From Fusobacteria bacterium ZRK30 (GTDB lineage: Bacteria > Fusobacteriota > Fusobacteriia > Fusobacteriales > Fusobacteriaceae), in NCBI GenBank assembly GCA_024628785.1, contig CP102404.1, forward strand, positions 124,001-188,000: 64,000 nt of DNA, in the 5' to 3' direction. The notes under the pieces are model-generated. The model made no database searches. It was not told the origin of the DNA and was given only the letters and a program-made list of their open reading frames with translations. The translations under genes and the position numbers were made by a program. This document shows positions 6,254 through 63,357 of the stretch, piece after piece. Every line of letters begins with the position of its first letter. Position 1 is the stretch's first letter.

Positions 6254-6363
6254 CTTTAGTAGGGGGAAGGCGTCGTTCATACTGATGCACCATGTTATCT
6301 TCCTTAAATTGGGATATATAATTAGATCTTTTAAAGCTCCCAATTTGGGAGCTTTTTTTATAA
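6254..6363 (+). ncRNA. Duplicated intergenic element, copy A (candidate structured RNA with terminator)
   Basis: About 105 nt closely resembling a second stretch at 18571-18675. Shared blocks are TAGTAGGG, TTCATACTGATGCACCA (identical), ATATATAATTAGAT and a terminator hairpin AAGCTCCCAATTTGGGAGCTT followed by T7. In copy A, GGAAG (near 6265-6279) can pair with CTTCC (6299-6303) around the invariant TTCATACTGATGCACCA block. There is no open reading frame. It lies downstream of the OLD gene on the same strand, so it may be its 3' UTR or an independent RNA. Confidence 0.5.
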
Positions 6364-51137: not shown

Positions 51138-52709
51138 TTATGCTTCTTTTATTTGCTCTATTTCTACTTCTTCTGTCTCCGCCACTTCTTCTTTGTTCCA
51201 ATTCTTCTCAGCTTTTAATGATCTCATCAATGAAATCATAGCAAAGATCATTATGAATACAAACGGGAAGGCGGCGACCAGAGATATTGTCTGTAACATT
51301 TTAAGTCCATTTGCACTTGCTAACATTAGAGCTAATGCTAATCCAGATTGAATTCCACCCCAAAGAAGTTTTTTTCCAACCGGTGGATTTAAATCCCCTT
51401 TAGAACTTAACATACCTAATACAAACGTAGCTGCATCTGCCGAAGTGATAAAGAATGTACATAATAAAACTACTGCGATTACAGATACTGCCATTCCCAT
51501 TGGATACTTACTTAAAACTACAAATAGTGCTGTAGGAGTAGAAACTATAGCTTCTTTAGCAAGATCTAATCCTTGTGCTAATCCCATACTTCCAAATACT
51601 GAAAACCAGATAAATGAAGCTAATGTAGGAGCTAATAATACTCCTGTAATAAATTCTCTGATAGTTCTTCCTTTAGATATTCTAGCAATAAAACTTCCTA
51701 CAAATGGAGCCCATGCTATCCACCATGCCCAGTAGAATACTGTCCAAGTTCCGTACCAAGAGTCATTTGTAAATGTTCCCATCTCGAAACTGGCACCTAC
51801 AAATCCACCCATATAGTTCCCTAAAGATTCTACAAATACTTTTAATATTAATAATGTAGGTCCCACTAAGAAACAAACAACTAACATTAAAAGGATTACT
51901 CCTACGTTTAAGTTAGATATAAATTTCATACCTTTATCCACTCCAGCCATTGCTGATAACATAAAGATAGCAGTTATTATTCCTACAATTAAAATTTGAA
52001 CTAATTTTGTTTCAGGTACTCCGAATAAATAGTTTAATCCTGCATTTATTTGGTAAGTTCCAAGTCCTAAAGATGTAGCTACTCCTGCAACAGTTGCAAA
52101 AATTGCAAATACATCTATCATCTTCCCAAACCATGATTTAACAGCTTTTTCTCCCACAATTGGAATGAATACACTACTTACAAGAGCTGGCTTACCTTTT
52201 CTAAATTGCATATAAGCCATAGCTAAGGCTAATACTGAATAGTTAGCCCATGGATGAAGACCCCAGTGCATAAATGAATGCTGCATAGCAAAAGCTGCTG
52301 CCCTAGGTGTTCCTCCCTCAATCCCTATAATTGGATTAACATAGAAATTCATAGGTTCTGCTGCTCCCCAGAATACTAATCCTATACCCATTCCTGCTGA
52401 AAAGAGCATAGCAAACCATGATATTAGAGTATATTCTGGTTTAGAATTGTCAGGACCTAATTTTATCGATCCATATTTACTGAATGCTAAGTATGCACAA
52501 AATGCCACAAATGATGACATTGAGATAGTATATAACCATCCGAAATTATTCACAAGATAACCAAAAGTTGCATTTCCTGCCTTTTCAAAACTAGCAGGTA
52601 AAACTAGCCCCCATAATACAATGGCTAAAGTTAGACCTATAGATATATAAAATGTCGCATCACTTTTTTTTATATTAGTTTCTTTAATTACACCTGTATC
52701 CGCTTTCAT
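51138..52709 (-). CDS. BCCT family glycine betaine transporter
   Basis: 523 residues, 12 membrane helices. BCCT motifs: FGYLVNNFGWLYTISMSSFV near the N-terminus, SAGMGIGLVFWGAAEPMNFY (residues ~112-131), WTVFYWAWWIAWAPFVGSF (~325-343, the Trp box) and ISKGRTIREFITGVLLAPTL. The Trp prism in the fourth and eighth helices favours betaine-like quaternary amines. It lies 60 bp downstream of betaine-type grdH, which assigns the locus to betaine rather than sarcosine. AGAAGGGGGATTT precedes ATG; C-terminal tail is acidic. Confidence 0.93.
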   Translation of the reverse strand: MKADTGVIKETNIKKSDATFYISIGLTLAIVLWGLVLPASFEKAGNATFGYLVNNFGWLYTISMSSFVAFCAYLAFSKYGSIKLGPDNSKPEYTLISWFAMLFSAGMGIGLVFWGAAEPMNFYVNPIIGIEGGTPRAAAFAMQHSFMHWGLHPWANYSVLALAMAYMQFRKGKPALVSSVFIPIVGEKAVKSWFGKMIDVFAIFATVAGVATSLGLGTYQINAGLNYLFGVPETKLVQILIVGIITAIFMLSAMAGVDKGMKFISNLNVGVILLMLVVCFLVGPTLLILKVFVESLGNYMGGFVGASFEMGTFTNDSWYGTWTVFYWAWWIAWAPFVGSFIARISKGRTIREFITGVLLAPTLASFIWFSVFGSMGLAQGLDLAKEAIVSTPTALFVVLSKYPMGMAVSVIAVVLLCTFFITSADAATFVLGMLSSKGDLNPPVGKKLLWGGIQSGLALALMLASANGLKMLQTISLVAAFPFVFIMIFAMISLMRSLKAEKNWNKEEVAETEEVEIEQIKEA

Positions 52710-52768: not shown

Positions 52769-54082
52769 TTAAAACTTAACTTCAAATACTGTTTGATCTT
52801 CAATGTCAGTAGCAAGAGCGTCTAATGCCACTCCAACTCTATGATATCTTAACTTCCATTGTTCTTCTTTAGAAGTATTAGGATCTCCTAGTGGGTAAGG
52901 AATTGAAATTGTAGGAACTATCTTATTGGCACCTACTGTTTTCGCAACCGGTACTAAGTTTGCCATTTGTACAATTGGGAAACCAGCTTTTTCTATTTCT
53001 TTTACCATCGTTGTTCCACAACGAGTACAAGTACCTCATGTAGAAGTCATGATAACGGCGTCAACACCATGTTCTTTTAAGAATGGTACCATTTCTTCAG
53101 CCATTCTAGATGCTTCTGCTTCTGTAGTTCCAGTTCCAACTGTAGTATAGAAATGTGTATCTAAACTTCCAATTTTCCCCTCAGTCTCATATGCTCTCAA
53201 TGCATCTAAAGGTACACATACGTTAGGATCTGCATCTGCTGCTGCTGGATCATAACCTGCATGGATAGTTTTGAATACTCCAGCTTCTAATCTTGGCATT
53301 TCACTTACATCATACATTCCCCATCTTGTAGCTGATGCAGATTGAATTCTATCTGGATTTGCTACTGGTACTATTCCACCTGTAGTAACTATTGCTATTT
53401 TTGAAGTTGATAAGTCTTTAACAGCTGGTGCTATCTCAACTCTATCACTTTTTGGAATAGGTAACTCAGTTACATATTCTTCTCCAGCTAATTTTTTAAG
53501 AAGCATTTTAACTCCTCTAACTGCTGCTGGTTCCATTGTAAAGTCAATTACTTGATGTCTGATTCCTCTTACGTAGAATCCTTCTTCTTCAGCTGTTCCA
53601 ATTTTTTCTCCAGCTAAAATTTTGTCTGCATAAGCAGCCATTTTCTTAGTGTCTTTTCTCATTGCAGCGGCACTTCTACCACCTGGGAAAATAACAACTT
53701 CTTTTTTAAACATGTTTACTCCTGGATTTTCAACATGCATAGATGAAATTACAGGAACTCCAAATTTTTCTTTAACAGCTTTACAGATTACTCCACAAGC
53801 GTTTCCGTATCTTCCTGCTTGGAAAGATGGTCCTGCGAAGAAGATATCAAATTCTTTATCTTCTAAGAATGCTAAAATTCTTTCAACTGCTTCATCTTGA
53901 TTAGAACCCATGAAGTTATCTCCACAAATTACTGTATGAGTTACTTCTGCATTTTTTAGTGCTGCGTCTAACGCTAGTGAAGGACCTACTAATCCTTCTT
54001 TAATTTCTGGAGCATGATCGGCTTTTTCTTCCCCACCAATTCCAGCGAAAAATTGATTTATATATAAAATTGCTTTTTTCAT
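52769..54082 (-). CDS. grdH: Betaine (or glycine/sarcosine) reductase protein B selenoprotein subunit, Sec at residue 349
   Basis: 437 residues with in-frame TGA (53036-53038) read as selenocysteine: DAVIMTSTU(349)GTCTRCG TTMVKE, the U-x2-C-x2-C segment of GrdB/GrdF/GrdH. Downstream of the TGA is a hairpin CGTTGT GGA ACAACG (53023-53009), in the position of a bacterial SECIS element. Protein B binds the substrate amine via GrdI's pyruvoyl group and passes a carboxymethyl group to GrdA. The neighbour BCCT transporter argues for betaine. Standard gene finders split it into two frames. AAGGAGGATTAATCAGT precedes ATG. Confidence 0.95.
53009..53038 (-). promoter_or_regulatory. Sec codon and SECIS-like hairpin of grdH
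   Basis: TGA at 53036-53038 followed after 12 bases by the perfect hairpin CGTTGT/ACAACG with GGA loop; loop G is about 18 nt from the TGA, as in bacterial SECIS. Confidence 0.7.
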
Positions 54083-54097
54083 ACTGATTAATCCTCC

Positions 54098-55423
54098 TTA
54101 ATATTCTTTCATTGTTTTTTGAGACCATCCAAGTACTTGATCTCCACAGAACATTGAGTTATTTTCTAAAATAACTGAACCGTCTTCTCTAACTGAAGGA
54201 CCTAATTTCTCGTCGCCTTCCCATCCACCAGCTAAACCATCTCTACCTAATGCTGCTAATTCACCGATTACTTCTTCCATTGGTGGTAATTTAATTAATT
54301 GTGATACATTTCCACAAGAAACAATTGCATTAGCTTTTTCACTTAGTACAACTAATGGTTGAGATTGACCGTCTCTACCAGTACACTCATTAGTGATTCC
54401 TACAGTTTTTACACCAACATCTTCTAAAGCATCAAAACATGCAATAAAGTCTGCATCTGGGTTTCCGTATCCTTCTTCTGTTAAGATAGCTCCATCTGCA
54501 CCTAATGACTTAGCCATTTGAGCTACGAATGCTGCTGCTCTTTCTTTTTGCTCCATTGCTACATTTAAGTTAGACATGATAACTCCTAAGAAGTTAATAG
54601 TTTCTCCATGTGCTTTGTATAACTCTTTAATTGTAGGACAGTTTTGCATATCATATGTAGACCATTTAGATGAACAAGGCATGAATGAACCACTGATGAT
54701 TGCTCCATCTAAAATTTCATTTGGATTCATGAAAGTTGGAACCATTCTATTTGCATCCCATCCATATACTAAGTCATTGTATCCAGATTCTTCCATTTGT
54801 GATTGTGGTTGCATTACATATACAACTGCTGGAAGTGCTTTTATTTTTTCATCTCTTTTAATGATTGGCTGTAATTCAAACTCTTCTATTTCTTCAGGTT
54901 CCATTTCTTTAACTGCATTACCTAAATATTCAGAAAGTCTCATTGCACCCCATCTAAGAGCTTTATTTTTCTTTTGTTGCTCATATCTTTCAAATTCCTC
55001 ATCTGTGTCAGCTACAAGACAAACATTGATTAGTTTAGAGAAATAAGTTAAATCTGCTCCTTCTCCACTCATATCTATCATTCCGTCTCCAAAACTTCCC
55101 CAGTGCTTTCCTACTGCTAATACACTTGTGTTCTTAAGTGCATGCGTTCTTCCATTACCTGCAGGAGTCATTCCACCTGTTACACCTGGAAATACTGGAT
55201 TTCCATTTACTCTACATCTAGGCTCAACAGCTTCCTTTACAGGAACAATTCTCTTGTTTTCACCAGGTCTAGCGATAACGATATCTGCTTCGGTAATATG
55301 CTCATCTTCCATAACATAAGCCAAGGCTTCATCTTTGTTAATTGTAAGAATACCATTCGCATAAGCTGTAGTATCCCCAAACTTAACATCTTTAACATAA
55401 AAATTTCCCAATTCAAGTTTCAT
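54098..55423 (-). CDS. grdI: Betaine (or glycine/sarcosine) reductase protein B proprotein, GrdI/GrdE/GrdG type
   Basis: 441 residues. MKLELGNFYVKDVKFGDTTA, GNPVFPGVTGGMTPAGNGRT and ISGSFMPCSSKWSTYDMQNC are conserved in these proproteins. The self-cleavage site is the Cys of VGITNECTGRDGQSQPLVVL (residue ~355), which becomes the pyruvoyl N-terminus of the small subunit. In glycine-type proteins the residues around it differ slightly, so the substrate assignment rests on the BCCT neighbour. First gene of the grd locus; operators upstream. AGAGGTGAAGTA precedes ATG. Confidence 0.93.
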   Translation of the reverse strand: MKLELGNFYVKDVKFGDTTAYANGILTINKDEALAYVMEDEHITEADIVIARPGENKRIVPVKEAVEPRCRVNGNPVFPGVTGGMTPAGNGRTHALKNTSVLAVGKHWGSFGDGMIDMSGEGADLTYFSKLINVCLVADTDEEFERYEQQKKNKALRWGAMRLSEYLGNAVKEMEPEEIEEFELQPIIKRDEKIKALPAVVYVMQPQSQMEESGYNDLVYGWDANRMVPTFMNPNEILDGAIISGSFMPCSSKWSTYDMQNCPTIKELYKAHGETINFLGVIMSNLNVAMEQKERAAAFVAQMAKSLGADGAILTEEGYGNPDADFIACFDALEDVGVKTVGITNECTGRDGQSQPLVVLSEKANAIVSCGNVSQLIKLPPMEEVIGELAALGRDGLAGGWEGDEKLGPSVREDGSVILENNSMFCGDQVLGWSQKTMKEY

Positions 55424-55470: not shown

Positions 55471-55559
55471 ATAGGTTATTTTAGTAACCAAGATTATTTT
55501 CTAATCGCGATTAATTTCTTCTATACGTAATTTATAACCTATAAAATTCTATAAGTCAA
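55471..55559 (-). promoter_or_regulatory. grdI promoter with two palindromic sites
   Basis: TTGACT (55559-55554), 17-bp spacer, TATAAA (55536-55531). Downstream lie TAATCGCGATTA (55502-55513, perfect 12-bp palindrome) and GGTTATTTTAGTAACC (55478-55493, imperfect). Both fall around +15 to +55, typical of repressor sites. Confidence 0.65.
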
Positions 55560-56188
55560 CTCTTTTTTTTAAATAAAAAGTTATTTTTTTATCAATCTCT
55601 TTCTGAAGCCAACGTTTTCATTAAAAAAAACGAAAAATAAAAAAAAGATTCGTTTTTGAAACTTCGTGTAATATTTTAACGCTTTATCTCGGAATACATT
55701 CACTCTTTATAATGTGTTAAAGTGAAATAAAATTAATAAATATCCAATAAATATAATTATATATATATATTCTCTTTTATATCACTAAAAATTTTATACG
55801 CTTGTGATTTTTTTATTTTTATTTTTTGATTTTTAAAAAAAATAAAGGCTATCATCTGTTTAATTAGTACTTTATAATATATAAGGTACAAATAACCGAA
55901 AAAAACAATGTAATATTAAAAATTATGATACATATGTTGTTGTTTCATCTTCACAGGTCAGACTTTCCTATTTATTACGATACTAAAAAAGGTTACAAAG
56001 TTTATTCAATTTCGACGTAAAATCATAATTCATAGAGATATCAAGATGAAAAGGTCTTTTAATCCACTTTTTCTATTTTTACAAAGATTTAGTTATCCTC
56101 AATAAAATAAAAAAATAAATTTTGTTTTTGGCGTTTTTATTATATACTTAGTTAATAACTAGATTAATTTACAGGAGAGAAGGAAAAG
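55560..56188. other. Divergent spacer between grdI and the TetR gene
   Basis: About 630 AT-rich bases without a gene. TTAGTTAATAACTAG (56147-56161) is an inverted repeat just before the TetR gene and a likely autoregulatory site. Confidence 0.45.
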
Positions 56189-56875
56189 ATGACCAGACTA
56201 GAACGAAAATTAAATGTAAAACGACTTTTTATAGATGCTACCATGACTATTATTCAAGAAGAAGGCTTAGAAGAGGTTAGTATAAGAAAAGTTGCCAAGA
56301 TCACAGGTTACAACAGTGCGACCCTCTATACATACTTTAAGAATTTAGATCACTTAATTCTTTTAGCTTGTATGAAATTTTTAAATGAATATATCACTGG
56401 ATTAGATGCTTATACTGAAGAAGCTGAAAACCCATTGGAGGAATCTATCCTCATTTGGGAGTTTTTCTGTAAATGCTCATTCGAAAGACCAGAGATATAC
56501 AAATCTATATTTTTTTCTAATTTAGATTTTAACAGAAAAGATTTTGAAAATTACTACGAGATAAAGGAATTTTATAAAATTTATCCAGAGGAGATAACAA
56601 CCTCCTTTGCAAAATTTCACCGTATGATCTTAAAATTAGATATCTATGAAAGAAATAAGATCCTTTTGATAAAGACAGCTCGAAAAAAACTGATTTCTCC
56701 GAGTAATATAACCACTATCAATGATATGCAGGTTCTTATGTATAAGGGACTATTAGAGGAAGCTACAAAACCTGAAAATATTTATAGACGTAAAGTTTTA
56801 TGTAATAGAGCTATCAAATACATAAAAAACTGTTTAAAATTATTTGTCTTACAGGATTGTAGATTATTAAAGTAA
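56189..56875 (+). CDS. TetR family transcriptional regulator
   Basis: 228 residues. N-terminal HTH: TRLERKLNVKRLFIDATMTI, EEVSIRKVAKITGYNSATLY, TYFKNLDHLILL (recognition helix GYNSATLYTYFKN). The helical C-terminal ligand domain includes an ERPEIYKSIFFSNLDFNRKD stretch. Divergent from the grd locus; a self-operator-like palindrome lies before it. It may regulate the grd genes or an unseen target. AGGAGAGAAGGAAAAG precedes ATG; terminator at 56880. Confidence 0.85.
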   Translation: MTRLERKLNVKRLFIDATMTIIQEEGLEEVSIRKVAKITGYNSATLYTYFKNLDHLILLACMKFLNEYITGLDAYTEEAENPLEESILIWEFFCKCSFERPEIYKSIFFSNLDFNRKDFENYYEIKEFYKIYPEEITTSFAKFHRMILKLDIYERNKILLIKTARKKLISPSNITTINDMQVLMYKGLLEEATKPENIYRRKVLCNRAIKYIKNCLKLFVLQDCRLLK

Positions 56876-56877
56876 AT

Positions 56878-56915
56878 AAAAATAGGGGTAGTCTAAGACT
56901 ACCCCCTATTTTTAT
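56878..56915. terminator. Bidirectional terminator between tetR and the MBL gene
   Basis: AATAGGGGTAGTC TAA GACTACCCCCTATT with A/T-runs. Confidence 0.88.
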
Positions 56916-56931
56916 TTACTAATTATTATAT

Positions 56932-57558
56932 TTACCTATTCAAATACCTATTATGAATCTTTTCATATTTTAAGTTGGTATCTTCTCCGTGTCCCGGATA
57001 GATAGCTATATCATCGGGATAAGTTTTGATTTTTTTCAGACTTTCCTTCATCTGTTCCTTATTGCTCAGTTGTGTATTGGTTATACCAATAGTTTTTTTG
57101 AACAAAAAATCCCCTGTAAACATTACTTTTTCTGCTAAAAAATAATACACAATTGAACAGGTAGTATGTCCCGGGGTATCTATTACAAAAAATTCAAATT
57201 TTCCTATTTTTTGTTTCCCCTCATCTAAGTATTTGATATCTATCTTATCTATATCAAACCTTGTTCTTATTCCATATTTTTTTATAGTATAATCGAAATT
57301 AGCATCCATTATATAGTTAGGACGATTAGAACTGAGATAGACCGGAACCTTATATTTGTCTACAAATTTTTCCACTCCTAACAAATGATCCCAATGGGTA
57401 TGAGTCAAGAGAACTCCCAACACATTCAACTTAGAGTCTTCTATAAACTTATCAATATTATCAAAATCGCTTAAATCTACAATTAAACAATCATTCCCTT
57501 TTATTAAAATATAATTATTATTTGCAATTATTCCGCAAGTAATTTTCTTTATCTTCAT
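56932..57558 (-). CDS. Metallo-beta-lactamase-fold hydrolase (glyoxalase II-like)
   Basis: 208 residues from ATG 57558 (GGAGGAGTT upstream). Zinc motif HTHWDHLLGVEKFVD (residues ~53-67), IDTPGHTTCSIVYYF (third His), GDFLFKKTIG (Asp bridge) and YPGHGEDTN (last His). Small stand-alone members hydrolyse thioesters such as S-lactoylglutathione or detoxify polysulfide-type adducts; substrate unknown. Convergent with tetR. Confidence 0.85.
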   Translation of the reverse strand: MKIKKITCGIIANNNYILIKGNDCLIVDLSDFDNIDKFIEDSKLNVLGVLLTHTHWDHLLGVEKFVDKYKVPVYLSSNRPNYIMDANFDYTIKKYGIRTRFDIDKIDIKYLDEGKQKIGKFEFFVIDTPGHTTCSIVYYFLAEKVMFTGDFLFKKTIGITNTQLSNKEQMKESLKKIKTYPDDIAIYPGHGEDTNLKYEKIHNRYLNR

Positions 57559-57820
57559 AACTCCTCCACAATCTTTGTCTCTGCTCATTTTAATTTCAGA
57601 CTATAATTCTACTGACACTACTATGGGAGGAAAGATAGACATTTCTTCCAAAATAATAATAAATAATCCATTTTTGCTATTTCTTTAAAAGGTTAAAATT
57701 CATCCAAAACTATATTTTTAATCTTTTTTATTATTTAAGAACTCACAAAATTTATGGAATAAATAAAAGATTATAAAGATCTAAATTATGCTTATCTGGA
57801 TGCAGTGTCACGCTGCTTTT

Positions 57821-58813
57821 TTATTTTAAATATTCCCTTAACTTTTGTTTTTCATCCTCTGAGATAAAAGCTGCTTCTATGCTGTTTAAATATATATCTA
57901 TATATTCGCTTTTTTTCAACTCAAAAGCCTTCTCTATTTGAACACATTCCTCAGTCATAGTAGTGTCTGAAACAGTTCTATTGTCTGTATTTAATGTTAT
58001 CATAATTTCATCATTATAGAAATCATATATTGGATGTTCCCCATATTTTTTTACAGCTTTAGTCTGTACATTACTTGTAGGGCATATTTCCAAAGGAATT
58101 TTCTTTTCCTTTACCAGATTATAAGCTTTCCTGCTATTAGTTATAAATACCCCATGTCCAATTCTCTCTGCTCCTAAAAGTTCAATTGCATCGACAACAT
58201 TTTCACCTATCCCTGTTTCTCCTGCATGGATAGTTATCCTATATCCATATTCTCTGGCTTTTTTCATGGGCTCAATAAATTTATGACAAAATCCTGCCAC
58301 TTCTCCACCACAAAGATCCACTGCCACAACTCCTTTTCCTATGAATGAGCTTCCCTCCTCAACTATCTTCATAGCTGATTCAGCTGACAGGTGTCTCATA
58401 CATGATAAGATGTAGTTTCCCTTTATATCATATATTTTTTCTGCTCTTCTCATCCCACACAGTACACTCTCTATTATCTCTTTCGTAGTCAATCCATCTT
58501 CCGTATGCTGCTGAGGAGCAAATCTTATCTCTATATATTTTATATTTTCCGTGGCAGCATCTTCCATAAGTTCAAAAGATACCCTTTCTAAATCTTCTTT
58601 AGTCTGCATCACAGCTATTGGCAAATCAAAACATCTAAGATATTCATCTAATGAACTACAGCTTAAAGGAGCAGTCAGCCATTCTTTTATATCTTCCAAA
58701 TTTTGAGTTAATTCCAGCCTATTTTTTTTTATTATATCCAAAACTGTTTCAGCTCTTAAACTTCCATCTAAATGGCAGTGTAGATCAATTTTTGGCATTT
58801 CTTTATAATTCAT
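57821..58813 (-). CDS. add: Adenosine deaminase
   Basis: 330 residues from ATG 58813 (ATAGGAGGAATAAA upstream). Metal site PKIDLHCHLDGSLR (residues ~7-20), second His/Glu pair in YRITIHAGETGIGENV (~195), SNVQTKAVKKYGEHPI (~248) and metal Asp with LNTDNR (~276-281). Converts adenosine to inosine plus ammonia. The gene is preceded by an adenine-type riboswitch, a well-matched control. Complete, single gene. Confidence 0.95.
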   Translation of the reverse strand: MNYKEMPKIDLHCHLDGSLRAETVLDIIKKNRLELTQNLEDIKEWLTAPLSCSSLDEYLRCFDLPIAVMQTKEDLERVSFELMEDAATENIKYIEIRFAPQQHTEDGLTTKEIIESVLCGMRRAEKIYDIKGNYILSCMRHLSAESAMKIVEEGSSFIGKGVVAVDLCGGEVAGFCHKFIEPMKKAREYGYRITIHAGETGIGENVVDAIELLGAERIGHGVFITNSRKAYNLVKEKKIPLEICPTSNVQTKAVKKYGEHPIYDFYNDEIMITLNTDNRTVSDTTMTEECVQIEKAFELKKSEYIDIYLNSIEAAFISEDEKQKLREYLK

Positions 58814-58860
58814 TTTATTCCTCCTATTATTTGATCCGATATATAGATTTCTAAGCAATT

Positions 58861-58975
58861 AAAAAATTCCCATTACAAAGAACGCTGTATAAACAGACCC
58901 TCTTCGTAATCAGGAATTATAGGTACCTGGTAGAAACCTCCAAACCATATTATTGGAGTTATACGATATTAAATT
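58861..58975 (-). promoter_or_regulatory. Purine riboswitch, adenine type, with terminator platform
   Basis: Minus strand reads TATAACTCCAATAATATGGT, TTGGAGGTTTCTACCAGG, then CCTATAATTCCTGATTACGA, the conserved purine aptamer core. The specificity position (after CCTGA) is U, as in adenine aptamers (guanine type has C). AATTCCTGATTACGAAG (58918-58902) pairs with CTTTGTAAT...GGAATT (58880-58865) plus T6 to form a terminator that competes with the aptamer, so ligand should turn the gene on. Confidence 0.88.
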
Positions 58976-59013
58976 ATTTATAATATTTTAACAATTATTT
59001 TCCTTTCTGTCAA

Positions 59014-59415
59014 TTATAACTCTTGTGTTTCAACAGTCAACTCTTCATAACCTGTGTCCGAATCCATCACCCTGTCAAACTTATAACTTTCTAATATCCC
59101 TATCACTAATTCACATGTTGTATTAACAATATTTCCCTCTACAAGGTGACCTCCAAAACTATTACCATCTTGGTCACTGCAATTTATATGAAGATGGACA
59201 CCCTTAGGAGAGAGAGTTCCATTCAATGAAAGGATCTCCATATTTTTATCAATCTCCTTAATAGTTATACCATCAGCTACTCTAAACCTAGCCCTTGATA
59301 TACAACCTACAGAGGAAAGTATTGTCCCTGCCTTTACCTTTTTTTCTTTAACTATCCTTTGTATCTCAATTTTTAAATCCATACCCTCAGTTAATCTAAC
59401 AGCATATATCTTCAT
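59014..59415 (-). CDS. PPC-domain (DUF296) protein
   Basis: 133 residues, all PPC/DUF296: start MKIYAVRLTEGMDLKIEIQR, GTILSSVGCISRARFRVADG (residues ~31-50), LSPKGVHLHINCSDQDGNSF GGHLVEGNIV (~70-100) with the three conserved His, then TTCELVIGI. Such proteins are trimeric and found alone in bacteria, or in AT-hook DNA-binding proteins of plants; bacterial role uncertain. AGAGGAGATAAG precedes ATG. Confidence 0.88.
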   Translation of the reverse strand: MKIYAVRLTEGMDLKIEIQRIVKEKKVKAGTILSSVGCISRARFRVADGITIKEIDKNMEILSLNGTLSPKGVHLHINCSDQDGNSFGGHLVEGNIVNTTCELVIGILESYKFDRVMDSDTGYEELTVETQEL

Positions 59416-59506
59416 CTTATCTCCTCTATTATTTAATTCTAAGGTTAATGCTACTACATTTGAATAAAAGATACAAGTTTAAAAAATTTCTTATTCTTTG
59501 ATCTCT

Positions 59507-59785
59507 TTAACTGCTTTTTTCTATAATTATCGAATAATATGATTTGTGGGGATTTCCAGTCTTAATATCAATCACATCCGGATCATGCTCTATAATTTTA
59601 AACTCTTTTAAATATTTTTTTACGTCATTTGCCTCAAATATATGAGGTTCCAATTCAACTGCCTCATTACTGACAAAGCGAATCCGGATCTCCTTGGGAT
59701 GTTCCAAAGCTTTATTTGATCCTGAATCTATAAACTCATAGCCAGCTCCTTCCAATATTTCTCTGATTTCATCGATTAGTTTCAA
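59507..59785 (-). CDS. Small hypothetical protein, probable TTG start
   Basis: ~92 residues. An ATG at 59794 overlaps the ribosome site (AGAGGAGGATGATAG), while TTG at 59785 has correct 9-base spacing, so it is preferred. Acidic sequence EIREILEGAGYEFIDSGSNK, HPKEIRIRFVSNEAVELEPH, KIIEHDPDVIDIKTGNPHKS with a helix-strand pattern. No family recognised; small genes follow on both sides. Confidence 0.5.
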   Translation of the reverse strand: MKLIDEIREILEGAGYEFIDSGSNKALEHPKEIRIRFVSNEAVELEPHIFEANDVKKYLKEFKIIEHDPDVIDIKTGNPHKSYYSIIIEKSS

Positions 59786-59833
59786 ATCTATCATCCTCCT
59801 CTGTTATATTTCTAGATATTTTTTAAGTTTTTA

Positions 59834-59862
59834 TAAAAAAAGCCGCCTCAGAGGCAGCTAAG
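59834..59862 (-). terminator. Terminator of the DUF1540 gene
   Basis: AGCTGCCTC TGA GAGGCGGCT hairpin followed by T7 on the minus strand, 16 bp after the stop at 59877. Confidence 0.85.
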
Positions 59863-59876
59863 GGAGAGAAAGTTCA

Positions 59877-60158
59877 TTATTTTTTTCGATAAGTTTGGCA
59901 GTCTACCTCATTTCCTACAACCGACATATGAATACCAGATGCAGTACATTCCAAAGAACTGTTAAAAGAACATGAATCTACTTTACATGACCCTACTCCA
60001 CCGGAAACATCATTAAATCCGGCTTTCTTAGAACCAGCCATAAATGTATCGCAACATGGTATATCGTCCCCTATATTTATAGCAGGAGTATGGCATTGTT
60101 TATTCTTATTATATACACAACTTTCAGCATTACAATCAAATATTTTTGTAATTTCCAT
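59877..60158 (-). CDS. Protein with two DUF1540 cysteine-rich modules
   Basis: 93 residues. Two repeats: ITKIFDCNAESCVYNKNKQC HTPAINIG...CCDTF and GSCKVDSCSFNSSLECTASG IHMSVVGNEVDCQTY, each with four to five Cys in the DUF1540 spacing, thought to bind metal. Soluble, no signal. Common in clostridia and fusobacteria; function unknown. GGAGGATGAAAT precedes ATG. Confidence 0.88.
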   Translation of the reverse strand: MEITKIFDCNAESCVYNKNKQCHTPAINIGDDIPCCDTFMAGSKKAGFNDVSGGVGSCKVDSCSFNSSLECTASGIHMSVVGNEVDCQTYRKK

Positions 60159-60265
60159 ATTTCATCCTCCACAACTCCCTCCCTTGTTTTATATACTATC
60201 TTCCTCTTAACTTCCTTCAATTAAGTAAATATTTTTTGAAAGTATTTTATAGAACAATATACTTA

Positions 60266-60952
60266 TTAATTAAATAAAAATTTAAAAAATACCCTAGCTA
60301 AATCCCTGCTGCTGTTAAACATATCCGTAAATTGGTAGGTGATCAGAAAAAATAAGGGATAAAAGATATGCGGCTTAAAATCTGACCAAACTACAATCGA
60401 ATTTATATATTTACTTTTTGATATATATACATTTCCTAGTACAGCAATTACTATTCCAACTATGGCACCGAAGATAATATCGGTTGGGTAGTGCAAACCT
60501 AAATATATTCTTGGAATAGCTATAAATAATGTCGTATAAAAAAATGTAAATAATCCTAATTTTTTGGATATAAAAAAAATCCCCGTTGCCAAGCTAAAAA
60601 ATAAAACAGCATGATCACTTGGCATTGAACTCCAGCCAGAAGAATGAAGACTAACCATCCCATGTGGCAGTAAAAAATCCAATCCTTTTTCATGCAGTGG
60701 TCTAAGCCGAAATGGCAGTATTAATGCAAGCCCCCTTGCAAAGAACATTGCAATAATCGAACTAATAAGAATTGAGATGATCTGCTGACGATTCTTTTCA
60801 TCTTTAAACCATCCATACCAAAGAATAAACATAAAAACACTGGCTTTTAAAAGAGAGTTCCCTGATAAAATCAACATAGAGTAATCAAATATTTTTGACT
60901 GCTGAGAAAATTGATTCAGGTAAGTCATTATTTCAAAGTCAAAGAAATTCAT
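60266..60952 (-). CDS. PAP2-superfamily membrane phosphatase
   Basis: 228 residues, five to six membrane helices. Phosphatase motifs: RLRPLHEKG (residue ~82), SGWSSMPSDHAVLFF (~106-120) with PSxH-type loop, and RIYLGLHYPTDIIFGA (~148-163). Likely a lipid phosphatase such as undecaprenyl pyrophosphate phosphatase or phosphatidylglycerophosphate phosphatase. AGGAGGCTCT precedes ATG. Monocistronic. Confidence 0.88.
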   Translation of the reverse strand: MNFFDFEIMTYLNQFSQQSKIFDYSMLILSGNSLLKASVFMFILWYGWFKDEKNRQQIISILISSIIAMFFARGLALILPFRLRPLHEKGLDFLLPHGMVSLHSSGWSSMPSDHAVLFFSLATGIFFISKKLGLFTFFYTTLFIAIPRIYLGLHYPTDIIFGAIVGIVIAVLGNVYISKSKYINSIVVWSDFKPHIFYPLFFLITYQFTDMFNSSRDLARVFFKFLFN

Positions 60953-61207
60953 AGAGCCTCCTATATACTAAATAACGTTAAAACGATAATATATTTTTTA
61001 TACTATTCTAAACAATTGTTGATATTCCTAGTTTTTTTTATATAAATAATATGAATTTGTAAAAAAACCATAATATAAGAAATTATATATTCATAGAGAA
61101 AACTATCAGAGACATATCATTTTAATCTCACAATATATGATATAATATGAGGTATATTGTAAAAACTTACAGACTGGAAGTTTTTATTTTTATTAAAGGA
61201 GGTAGAA

Positions 61208-61351
61208 ATGAAGAAAGGAAAAACAAAAGCCGTTAAAATAAAAGGAAAAAACAAAAACAAAGGAAAAAAACTGGGTAAGCCACTTATAAAAGCAAATGTT
61301 AAAAGAAAGATAAAGATAAAAGAGATACAGGATGAGGGAGAAGCAGGATAA
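61208..61351 (+). CDS. Very basic 47-residue small protein
   Basis: MKKGKTKAVKIKGKNKNKGK, KLGKPLIKANVKRKIKIKEI, QDEGEAG: more than a third Lys, a short acidic end. An ideal AAAGGAGG lies 6 bases before ATG, and a terminator AGCAGGATAATATCCTGCT plus T8 begins at 61342, overlapping the stop. The layout is that of a real small gene; nucleic acid or ribosome binding is the obvious guess, not shown. Confidence 0.6.
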   Translation: MKKGKTKAVKIKGKNKNKGKKLGKPLIKANVKRKIKIKEIQDEGEAG

Positions 61352-61369
61352 TATCCTGCTTTTTTTTCT
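61340..61369 (+). terminator. Terminator of the small basic gene
   Basis: AAGCAGGAT AA TATCCTGCTT followed by T8. Confidence 0.85.
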
Positions 61370-61486
61370 TATAAACTTAATTTAATCAGCCTGTTTTAGA
61401 TGAAAAAATATATAACTTTTTTATAATTCAGAATGATAAAAAGAATAAGAATTCTCCTCCTATTCCCCTACCTCCACTTCCATTAC

Positions 61487-61545
61487 ATTGTAATTAATTA
61501 TTAATTAAAAAAAATTAATTATTAATTAAAAAACTAATCGCGATT
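61487..61545. promoter_or_regulatory. Tandem AT repeat and TAATCGCGATT site upstream of the glycine riboswitch
   Basis: TTAATTATTAATTAAAAAA occurs twice in tandem (~61492-61533), directly followed by TAATCGCGATT (61535-61545), which matches the palindrome at the grdI promoter. Confidence 0.5.
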
Positions 61546-61694
61546 TTTTTCACTTGCCTATTGTATTCTCAAAAAATATATGCTAATATCATAGGGATAT
61601 TCCACATAAGATGTCTTTTAATGGATATAATTTTCATCTTAAAAAATTGCTTTTTCAGAATTTTTTATTATGTATAATATATAAGTTAAAAATC

Positions 61695-61880
61695 GGTTGA
61701 AGGTATAGGGAGAAGATAAGAAATTATCGCCGAAGAAGTAAAACTTTCAGGTGCTTTTATTTAATAAAAGTGGGACCTATACTGGACGAACCTCTGGAGA
61801 GATCCAAAATAATGGACACCGAAGGAGCAAACCCTTAACGGGCGAAACTCTCAGGTAAAAGGGACAGAGGAGTTTAATTA
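61695..61880 (+). promoter_or_regulatory. Tandem glycine riboswitch
   Basis: Two gcvT-type aptamers in a row. First: GGTATAGGGAGAAGA ... CGCCGAAGAAGTAAAA ... CTTTCAGGTG ... GGGACCTATACTGGACG (61702-61787). Second: CCTCTGGAGAGATCC ... CACCGAAGGAGCAAACCC ... AAACTCTCAGGTAAAAGGG, ACAGAGGAG (61790-61872). GGAGA, CCGAAGG-AGCAAA and CTCAGGTAAA are the conserved glycine-aptamer words. It precedes the AGCS symporter; a hairpin between 61880 and 61940 is the expression platform. Confidence 0.94.
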
Positions 61881-61971: not shown

Positions 61972-63357
61972 ATGGATACACTTAATTTTTTTCAAGCAAT
62001 AAATAACTTTGTATGGGGACCACCGCTATTAATACTATTGGTAGGAACAGGTTTTTATCTGACGGTTCGACTGGGATTACTACAAATTTTCAAACTTCCC
62101 CTGGCACTGAAATATCTTTTTGTAAAGGATAGCGATGATTCTGGTGAGGGAGACGTAAGTAGTTTTGCTGCACTTTGTACAGCACTGGCAGCAACTATTG
62201 GTACCGGAAATATTGTAGGAGTAGCAACGGCTATTAGATTAGGAGGACCGGGAGCATTATTCTGGATGTGGATGGCGGCATTCTTTGGAATGGCAACGAA
62301 ATATTCAGAGGGACTTCTAGCCATCAAATATAGAACAAAAGACGAGAATGGACAACAAGCTGGAGGGCCCATGTATTATTTAGAAGGGGGGCTTAAAAAT
62401 AAAAAGCTTGGTAAGATATTAGCGAAATCTTTTGCTATATTTGGGATAGGAGTTGCATTCTTCGGGATAGGAACTTTTGCTCAGGTAAATGCCATCGTTA
62501 CAGGAGTAAGTGGCGGATTTGGAGTTCCAAGAATAATAGTTGCAGTACTTTTAACACTTAGTGTAGCTGCTGTAACTGTAGGAGGAATAAAGAGTATCTC
62601 TAGAGTTTCAGAGATTGTAGTTCCATTTATGGCACTATTTTATGTCTTTGGAGCAACAATAATACTTCTTATGGATAGAAGTGCTACTGCTGCTGCATTT
62701 AATTTAGTTATCAGCAGTGCATTTAATGGCCATGCTGCTGTAGGAGGATTTGCAGGTGCAGGGGTAGCTCTAGCATTAAAAGCAGGGGTAGCTAGAGGAG
62801 TTTTCTCAAATGAATCTGGTTTAGGATCAGCTCCTATTGCATCTGCTGCTGCTAGAACAAATTCTTGTGTAAGACAAGGACTAATCTCTATGACTGGGAC
62901 GTTCTTTGATACTATTGTAGTTTGTACTATGACAGGTCTTGTACTTATTTCTTCTGGATTCTGGAACCATGCAAACCTTGCTGGAGCAGAAGTTACTAAC
63001 GCCGCATTTAATAACCTTCTTACATTTGGAGGTATTGGTGGTCTTATTGTCAACATTGGTATTATTTTCTTTGCCTTCACTACAATCCTTGGTTGGAATT
63101 ACTATGGTGAAAGATGTACTGTATATCTTTGTGGTGTAAAAGGAATAAAATATTTTAAAGCAATCTTTATATTCTTGATTGCCATAGGACCATTTATCAG
63201 ACTAGAACTCATTTGGGTTGTAGCTGATATAGTTAATGGACTTATGGCTATTCCAAACTTAATCGGTTTAATTGCTCTTAGTGGAGTAATCATAAAAGAA
63301 ACGAAAGATTATTTTGAGGAATTAAAGGCAAAAGAAAAAAAGACAAAAACGGTTTAG
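61972..63357 (+). CDS. Na+:alanine/glycine symporter, AGCS family
   Basis: 461 residues, ~11 membrane helices. GPPLLILLVGTGFYLTVRLG (residues ~17-36), ALCTALAATIGTGNIVGVAT (~66-85), GGPGALFWMWMAAFFGMATK YSE (~91-113), QQAGGPMYYLEGG (~128-140) and RGVFSNESGLGSAPIASAAA are textbook AGCS motifs. It imports or exports glycine/alanine with Na+. The glycine riboswitch upstream sets the substrate to glycine and ties it to glycine/betaine reductase metabolism. AAAGGGAGGCACTAAAA precedes ATG. Confidence 0.95.
   Translation: MDTLNFFQAINNFVWGPPLLILLVGTGFYLTVRLGLLQIFKLPLALKYLFVKDSDDSGEGDVSSFAALCTALAATIGTGNIVGVATAIRLGGPGALFWMWMAAFFGMATKYSEGLLAIKYRTKDENGQQAGGPMYYLEGGLKNKKLGKILAKSFAIFGIGVAFFGIGTFAQVNAIVTGVSGGFGVPRIIVAVLLTLSVAAVTVGGIKSISRVSEIVVPFMALFYVFGATIILLMDRSATAAAFNLVISSAFNGHAAVGGFAGAGVALALKAGVARGVFSNESGLGSAPIASAAARTNSCVRQGLISMTGTFFDTIVVCTMTGLVLISSGFWNHANLAGAEVTNAAFNNLLTFGGIGGLIVNIGIIFFAFTTILGWNYYGERCTVYLCGVKGIKYFKAIFIFLIAIGPFIRLELIWVVADIVNGLMAIPNLIGLIALSGVIIKETKDYFEELKAKEKKTKTV

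Follow-up and report, generated by a model that had tools for sequence, protein, structure and literature searches.

TetR, FadR and KstR are TetR-family local repressors with a divergent target gene, and BetI is a TetR-family, choline-responsive repressor of betaine synthesis genes (model NCBIfam TIGR03384). CcpA belongs to a protein family other than TetR. CcpA of Clostridioides difficile is described as a glucose-responsive pleiotropic regulator in a paper that contains the terms glycine reductase, grdX and regulator (PMC3510511). Here we describe a palindrome and a TetR-family gene beside a betaine reductase operon in a 64,000-nucleotide stretch of the marine Fusobacteria bacterium ZRK30 (contig CP102404.1, positions 124,001 to 188,000; hereafter the window), whose genome (G000) we infer to belong to the genus Psychrilyobacter (g1). 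With a probability of roughly 0.83, the palindrome TAATCGCGATTA is the operator of the TetR protein encoded at 56189-56875, which would repress grdI-grdH-BCCT, nfn and eamA, would bind a pair of sites in the grdX region and would be released by a betaine-linked ligand. This reading draws on what was observed of the sites: where they fall at predicted promoters, how far they are conserved and how often the motif and TetR share a genome. From these observations we predict that TetR binds and represses, which ligand it responds to and in which direction it acts on the glycine reductase region.

The locus resembles those of TetR, FadR and KstR in having a divergent regulator gene, a predicted palindromic operator overlapping the promoter or start, and an all-helical fold. 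It differs from them in its predicted small multi-locus regulon, its setting in anaerobic betaine and glycine metabolism and its degenerate operator copies 17 base pairs (bp) away. BetI shares the TetR family and a link to betaine physiology, and BetI models were the top NCBIfam matches of the DNA-binding part of the window TetR; however, only about residues 11-86 matched, and identification as BetI was rejected at scores far below the cut-offs (TIGR03384, 32.6 bits versus 201.3; NF001978, 33.8 versus 118). Whereas BetI controls betaine synthesis genes, the window TetR would control betaine reduction.

The palindrome and the grdI promoter

The features at the grdI locus are as follows.

55502..55513, no strand: exact palindrome TAATCGCGATTA, the main operator (predicted TetR operator; sequence match)
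55531..55559, minus strand: predicted grdI promoter TTGACT-17-TATAAA (consensus match only)
55485..55496, minus strand: degenerate second operator TAATCTTGGTTA, at an offset of exactly +17 bp from the main operator
56189..56875, plus strand: TetR-family regulator gene (TetR_N), divergent from grdI; predicted palindrome binder
54098..55423, minus strand: grdI-like gene, glycine/sarcosine/betaine reductase component B subunit (PF09338, 619 bits)
53036..54082, minus strand: grdH up to an in-frame TGA (selenocysteine), betaine reductase selenoprotein B (NF040795, 614.8 bits for the part before the TGA only, below the full-length cut-off of 775)
52998-53035: SECIS_4 element (60.2 bits)
51138..52709, minus strand: BCCT glycine-betaine transporter gene (NF047988, 630.6 bits, cut-off 650; TIGR00842 above cut-off)

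The palindrome motif is real. A preliminary description of this DNA had reported a perfect 12-bp palindrome at the grdI promoter and 11 of its bases again at 61535-61545, in a sequence where CG steps are rare. Each point was borne out: TAATCGCGATTA lies at 55502-55513 and TAATCGCGATTT at 61535-61546 (11 of 12 bases), the CpG observed/expected ratio is 0.45 and the GC content is 30.5%. Evidence from the window itself was modest, with four copies at up to two mismatches versus a shuffle mean of 2.74, which is not above chance. First-order Markov replicates of the window contained an exact copy in 0 of 400 cases and two copies at up to one mismatch in 2 of 400, and TAATCGCGATTA was the sole CG-containing member of 50 perfect 12-bp palindromes in the window. 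The whole genome (3.6 Mb) contains five exact copies versus none of a reversed-word control, the Markov expectation being 0.06-0.35, a figure inflated by training on 177 kb that included the sites. At up to one mismatch there were 12 copies versus 4 of the control, and the one-mismatch copies taken by themselves (7 versus 4) were near chance level. It is the whole-genome excess of exact copies that decides the reality of the motif beyond the modest window evidence. In 61 family genomes, 24 exact copies were found versus 4 of the reversed word, and 23 of the 24 proved intergenic when the loci were read.

The genome-wide scan proposed in the preliminary description placed all five exact copies between genes at predicted promoters, and the random scatter without a pathway link that would have spoken against the motif did not occur. 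The link is clear for three of the five, namely the grdI site and a pair before the glycine riboswitch/grdX region. A scan of genome contigs gave at least seven loci. The matches in G029 and G055 were rejected as operators because they lie inside open reading frames (ORFs), as does the core word found in G006. A scan of viral contigs with a 14-bp word returned eight stretches, all within ORFs (at least 60 aa) in DNA of 46-65% GC, which were judged to be chance.

The grdI operator is centered at about +15.5 of the predicted start and spans about +10 to +21 of a promoter that scored strong; here and below, positions are counted from predicted starts (+7 after the -10 box). A TetR dimer on the palindrome would thus sit immediately past the -10 box and keep the betaine reductase genes (grdI-grdH-BCCT transporter) from being transcribed. 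The grdI-like product matched GrdG best among NCBIfam models, below cut-off, and is assigned to betaine because of its GrdH and BCCT neighbors; for the part of grdH before the TGA, GrdH was the best of six models. GrdI, selenocysteine-containing GrdH, SECIS and betaine transporter, the makings of a betaine reductase operon, are all present.

Among nine GrdI-bearing genomes, the promoter site is exact in eight and carries one mismatch in the ninth (G068). Measured at the best-scoring promoter of 10 grdI loci, operator centers fall between +8.5 and +16.5 (eight genomes span +8.5 to +15.5, G004 is at +16.5 and the second Propionigenium maris copy is at +11.5). In that second copy the operator word has two mismatches, and at both P. 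maris grdI loci another copy occurs close to -40. In 6 of the 10 grdI leaders the main operator is followed, at a distance of exactly 17 bp, by a degenerate copy, with single-leader shuffle p values of 0.004 to 0.088 (0.088 in the window genome; weak singly), and a further one at 34 bp in two (G002 and G004); the grdI leaders of G008, G032 and G068 have no such copy at +17. The 17-bp spacing hints at cooperative binding.

Other predicted targets and the site pair before grdX

Four further exact copies lie elsewhere in the genome.

C1:295434, intergenic: exact copy after the -10 box of a gene for a 746-aa Nfn-like oxidoreductase
C1:361426, intergenic: exact copy after the -10 box of an EamA transporter gene; the gene flanking it opposite eamA is 8-oxoguanine-deaminase-like
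C2:396127 and C2:396162, intergenic, between an rRNA operon and grdX-trxB-grdE: exact pair upstream of a promoter and a glycine riboswitch

The nfn operator is centered at +20.5 of a TTGGAA-17 promoter that was picked by eye, the scan having ranked another equally or higher, and the eamA operators are centered at +11.5, +11.5 and +13.5. The same TetR would repress both genes; repression is likely, judging from position, wherever the site follows the -10 box. At the nfn promoter, which is unlinked to tetR, the site is exact in G000, G007 and G005, has one mismatch in G003 and is degenerate in G002. The TetR-less genomes have a gap there (G006) or lack the site (G001, 76% complete). This pattern argues for action in trans, the contrast being a single locus within a single genus.

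The genome has seven one-mismatch copies: those at 61535 and C5:88036 lie at predicted promoters, another two fall between ORFs, two fall within ORFs (in one case what by eye is an ATP synthase subunit gene) and the last overlaps an ORF start. The C5:88036 copy (L016 8037) is located between the -35 and -10 boxes of a predicted promoter that scored strong and has transposase-like ORFs behind it; the original target of this copy may be broken. The sister genome G007 has a one-mismatch copy, AAATCGCGATTA, at C3:74639 (L054 6640). It follows what by eye is the TTGACT/TATAAT-like promoter of a gene for a 223-aa protein, which is a possible extra target.

At the grdX region, the same TetR would bind the site pair upstream of the glycine riboswitch and the glycine reductase genes. 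The pair is centered at -70.5/-105.5, -70.5/-104.5 and -71.5/-104.5 in G000, G007 and G002, respectively, and the -70 placement is kept within 1 bp although the sequence between the paired sites differs. An unlikely version of the reading given above, overlapping with it in confidence, is that TetR is a dual regulator that represses grdI, nfn and eamA and activates glycine-riboswitch transcripts from the -70/-105 pair, perhaps also from 61535, to form a betaine/glycine switch. The 33-35-bp spacing of the pair in the three genomes, the constant -70 placement and the center of the 61535 copy at about -56.5 would fit activation; however, position by itself does not establish activation, the pair was found in Psychrilyobacter only, and 61535 is not conserved. 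In its fullest form, which we consider slightly less probable still, sites at +10 to +20 would repress betaine reductase, transporter and Nfn-like enzyme while the pair activates the glycine reductase region, so that the two electron acceptors are used in turn.

Two further elements were observed around grdX. A PTS_EIIC_2 gene lies on the opposite strand between the glycine riboswitch and grdX (L015 7743-8816), with a similar gene there in G007 and G002, and a terminator-like hairpin follows the riboswitch. A riboswitch transcript extending to grdX, if formed, would therefore run antisense to the PTS_EIIC_2 gene. A tRNA-Sec-like element (L015 9199-9290, C2:398198-398289; 37.8 bits versus a cut-off of 47) without a UCA anticodon also lies upstream of grdX, preceded by promoter-like sequence and separated from grdX by a terminator-like hairpin. 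It is nearly identical in G007 and G002, the regular tRNA-Sec is at C1:284609-284701, and the element may act as a tRNA-like leader for the selenoprotein glycine reductase genes.

The TetR protein and its co-occurrence with the palindrome

The preliminary description had named the TetR at 56189 as one candidate binder, and it stands as the best candidate. Its product contains a TetR_N domain (PF00440, 34.1 bits, gathering score 24, residues 15-57), and the AlphaFold2 model (mean pLDDT 87.7) has only helices among its listed elements, indicating an all-helical fold. Judged by title or name, the 50 Foldseek matches listed were all TetR-like regulators (E from 1.2e-4); this search gave a generic TetR fold only, with no ligand hint among solved structures. 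In an alignment of 15 sequences, S31, I32, R33, K34, S43, Y47 and F50 of the DNA-binding part were invariant, which fits one shared operator down to 32% identity. Where a palindrome adjoins tetR, it separates that gene from grdI or from another target.

TetR (E <= 1e-15) was found in 12 of the 61 family genomes, the exact motif in 11 and both in 10 (Fisher p 7.8e-9, kinship ignored). TetR occurs without the exact motif in two genomes: G003, which is 62% complete, and G068, whose grdI promoter carries a one-mismatch copy. The single genome with the motif only is G029, where it lies within an ORF. All nine genomes with GrdI orthologs (at least 70% identity) contain TetR; GrdI matches of 41-44% identity were taken as GrdE. 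A phylum-wide search of 98 genomes found TetR in the same 12. In five genera (g1, g2, g4, P. maris (g5) and g13), tetR has an exact or one-mismatch operator next to it, and tetR with its operator is divergent from grdI in four of these (g1, g2, g4 and g5). G021 (g2) and G079 (g13) have tetR and operator with unrelated targets, peptidase and EamA in the former and amidohydrolase and EamA in the latter; their TetR homologs are only 32-35% identical, and among 12 g13 genomes only G079 has TetR or motif. At G021 L047, two exact operators (5535 and 6275) flank the tetR homolog, which suggests autoregulation, and the one at 6275 falls between the -35 and -10 boxes at the promoter of a beta-Ala-His dipeptidase gene (pepD).

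TetR paralogs adjoin BCCT betaine transporter genes in G002 and G004 (the BCCT gene at G002 L078 was confirmed by test; other BCCT neighbors were named by eye), and a betaine-related ligand is therefore the best guess. A betaine-linked small molecule, at best guess betaine itself, would release TetR from its operators.

Several findings weigh against the TetR-operator reading. The tetR gene, operator and grdI are neighbors in most genomes, so that co-occurrence partly reflects linked inheritance; many of the compared genomes are close kin; and the resolution of the TetR gene tree is too low for independent gains to be counted. A pair at about -70/-105 is not at a classical repressor position, and the TetR-bearing genomes G008, G011 and G068 have no copy at up to two mismatches in the glycine reductase region. 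Nor does that region of G032 have one at this threshold; TetR-less G017 has one two-mismatch copy far from grdX, and the sequences of G006 and G004 end before grdX. In G003, no operator was found in the 12 kb read around tetR. The TetR paralogs beside BCCT genes in G002 and G004 have a near-identical helix-turn-helix and no recognizable upstream operator; in all, none was found upstream of BCCT genes at five loci, three beside full-length TetR paralogs, with a weight matrix built from near-exact sites and thus harsh on variants.

The linkage of tetR and grdI and the G003 TetR without a nearby site would also suit a view that we consider improbable, in which an unlinked regulator of anaerobic amino-acid metabolism binds the palindrome and TetR is a bystander carried with the grdI cassette. 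Such a regulator could be encoded by a gene, LacI-type by eye, that lies close to the eamA site of G000 and G007, but it is not among the ORFs seen near the G002 eamA site. Moreover, G021 and G079 have a TetR homolog and operator without a GrdI match, and the TetR-less Psychrilyobacter genomes G006 and G001 have no exact motif. These results argue for TetR as the protein that would bind the palindrome.

The symporter copy and the meaning of the regulon

The second copy in the window lies upstream of the promoter of a riboswitch-controlled symporter gene.

61535..61546, no strand: one-mismatch copy TAATCGCGATTT, a doubtful operator (sequence match, 11 of 12 bases)
61784..61877, plus strand: glycine riboswitch aptamer (RF00504, 64.7 bits)
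61972..63357, plus strand: AGCS-family amino-acid:cation symporter gene (TIGR00835 above cut-off)

The preliminary description had taken the two copies to mark a common regulator of betaine and glycine genes. The placement of the exact copies supports that idea, but not the inclusion of the symporter: the 61535 copy has one mismatch and is kept in only one of four comparable TetR-bearing relatives. That relative is the near-identical sister G007 (98% identical there); in G003 and P. maris the aligned position holds another word, the symporter locus read in G002 contains no match at up to two mismatches, and G001 and G005 have no match for the region. The G004 contig stops short of this region, and two rows of the symporter alignment, those of G002 and G006, seem misplaced and were excluded. 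The 61535 copy was thus rejected as an equal partner of 55502, and we put its being functional at somewhat short of even odds. That the two window copies are a mere coincidence, as the count at up to two mismatches would allow, is very improbable in view of the genome excess of exact copies, the cross-genus conservation and the promoter placement, which strongly disfavor chance for 55502 and leave it possible for 61535 alone. A purine riboswitch was also observed in the window, at 58887-58986, upstream of an adenosine-deaminase-like gene (named by eye).

The literature searched, which covered few subscription journals, contained no earlier description of such a regulon and no dedicated regulator of betaine reductase. 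The palindrome is very probably the operator of the neighboring TetR, and the proposed regulon, of a known kind, is small and centers on betaine and glycine reduction. In a cold seep, Psychrilyobacter is reported to be a source of genes for betaine reduction (PMC8547467). The 12-bp operator, named candidate protein, short target list and clear position pattern make the proposed regulation directly testable. Betaine reductase makes trimethylamine, a methane precursor in marine sediments, which gives the control of betaine reductase its relevance.

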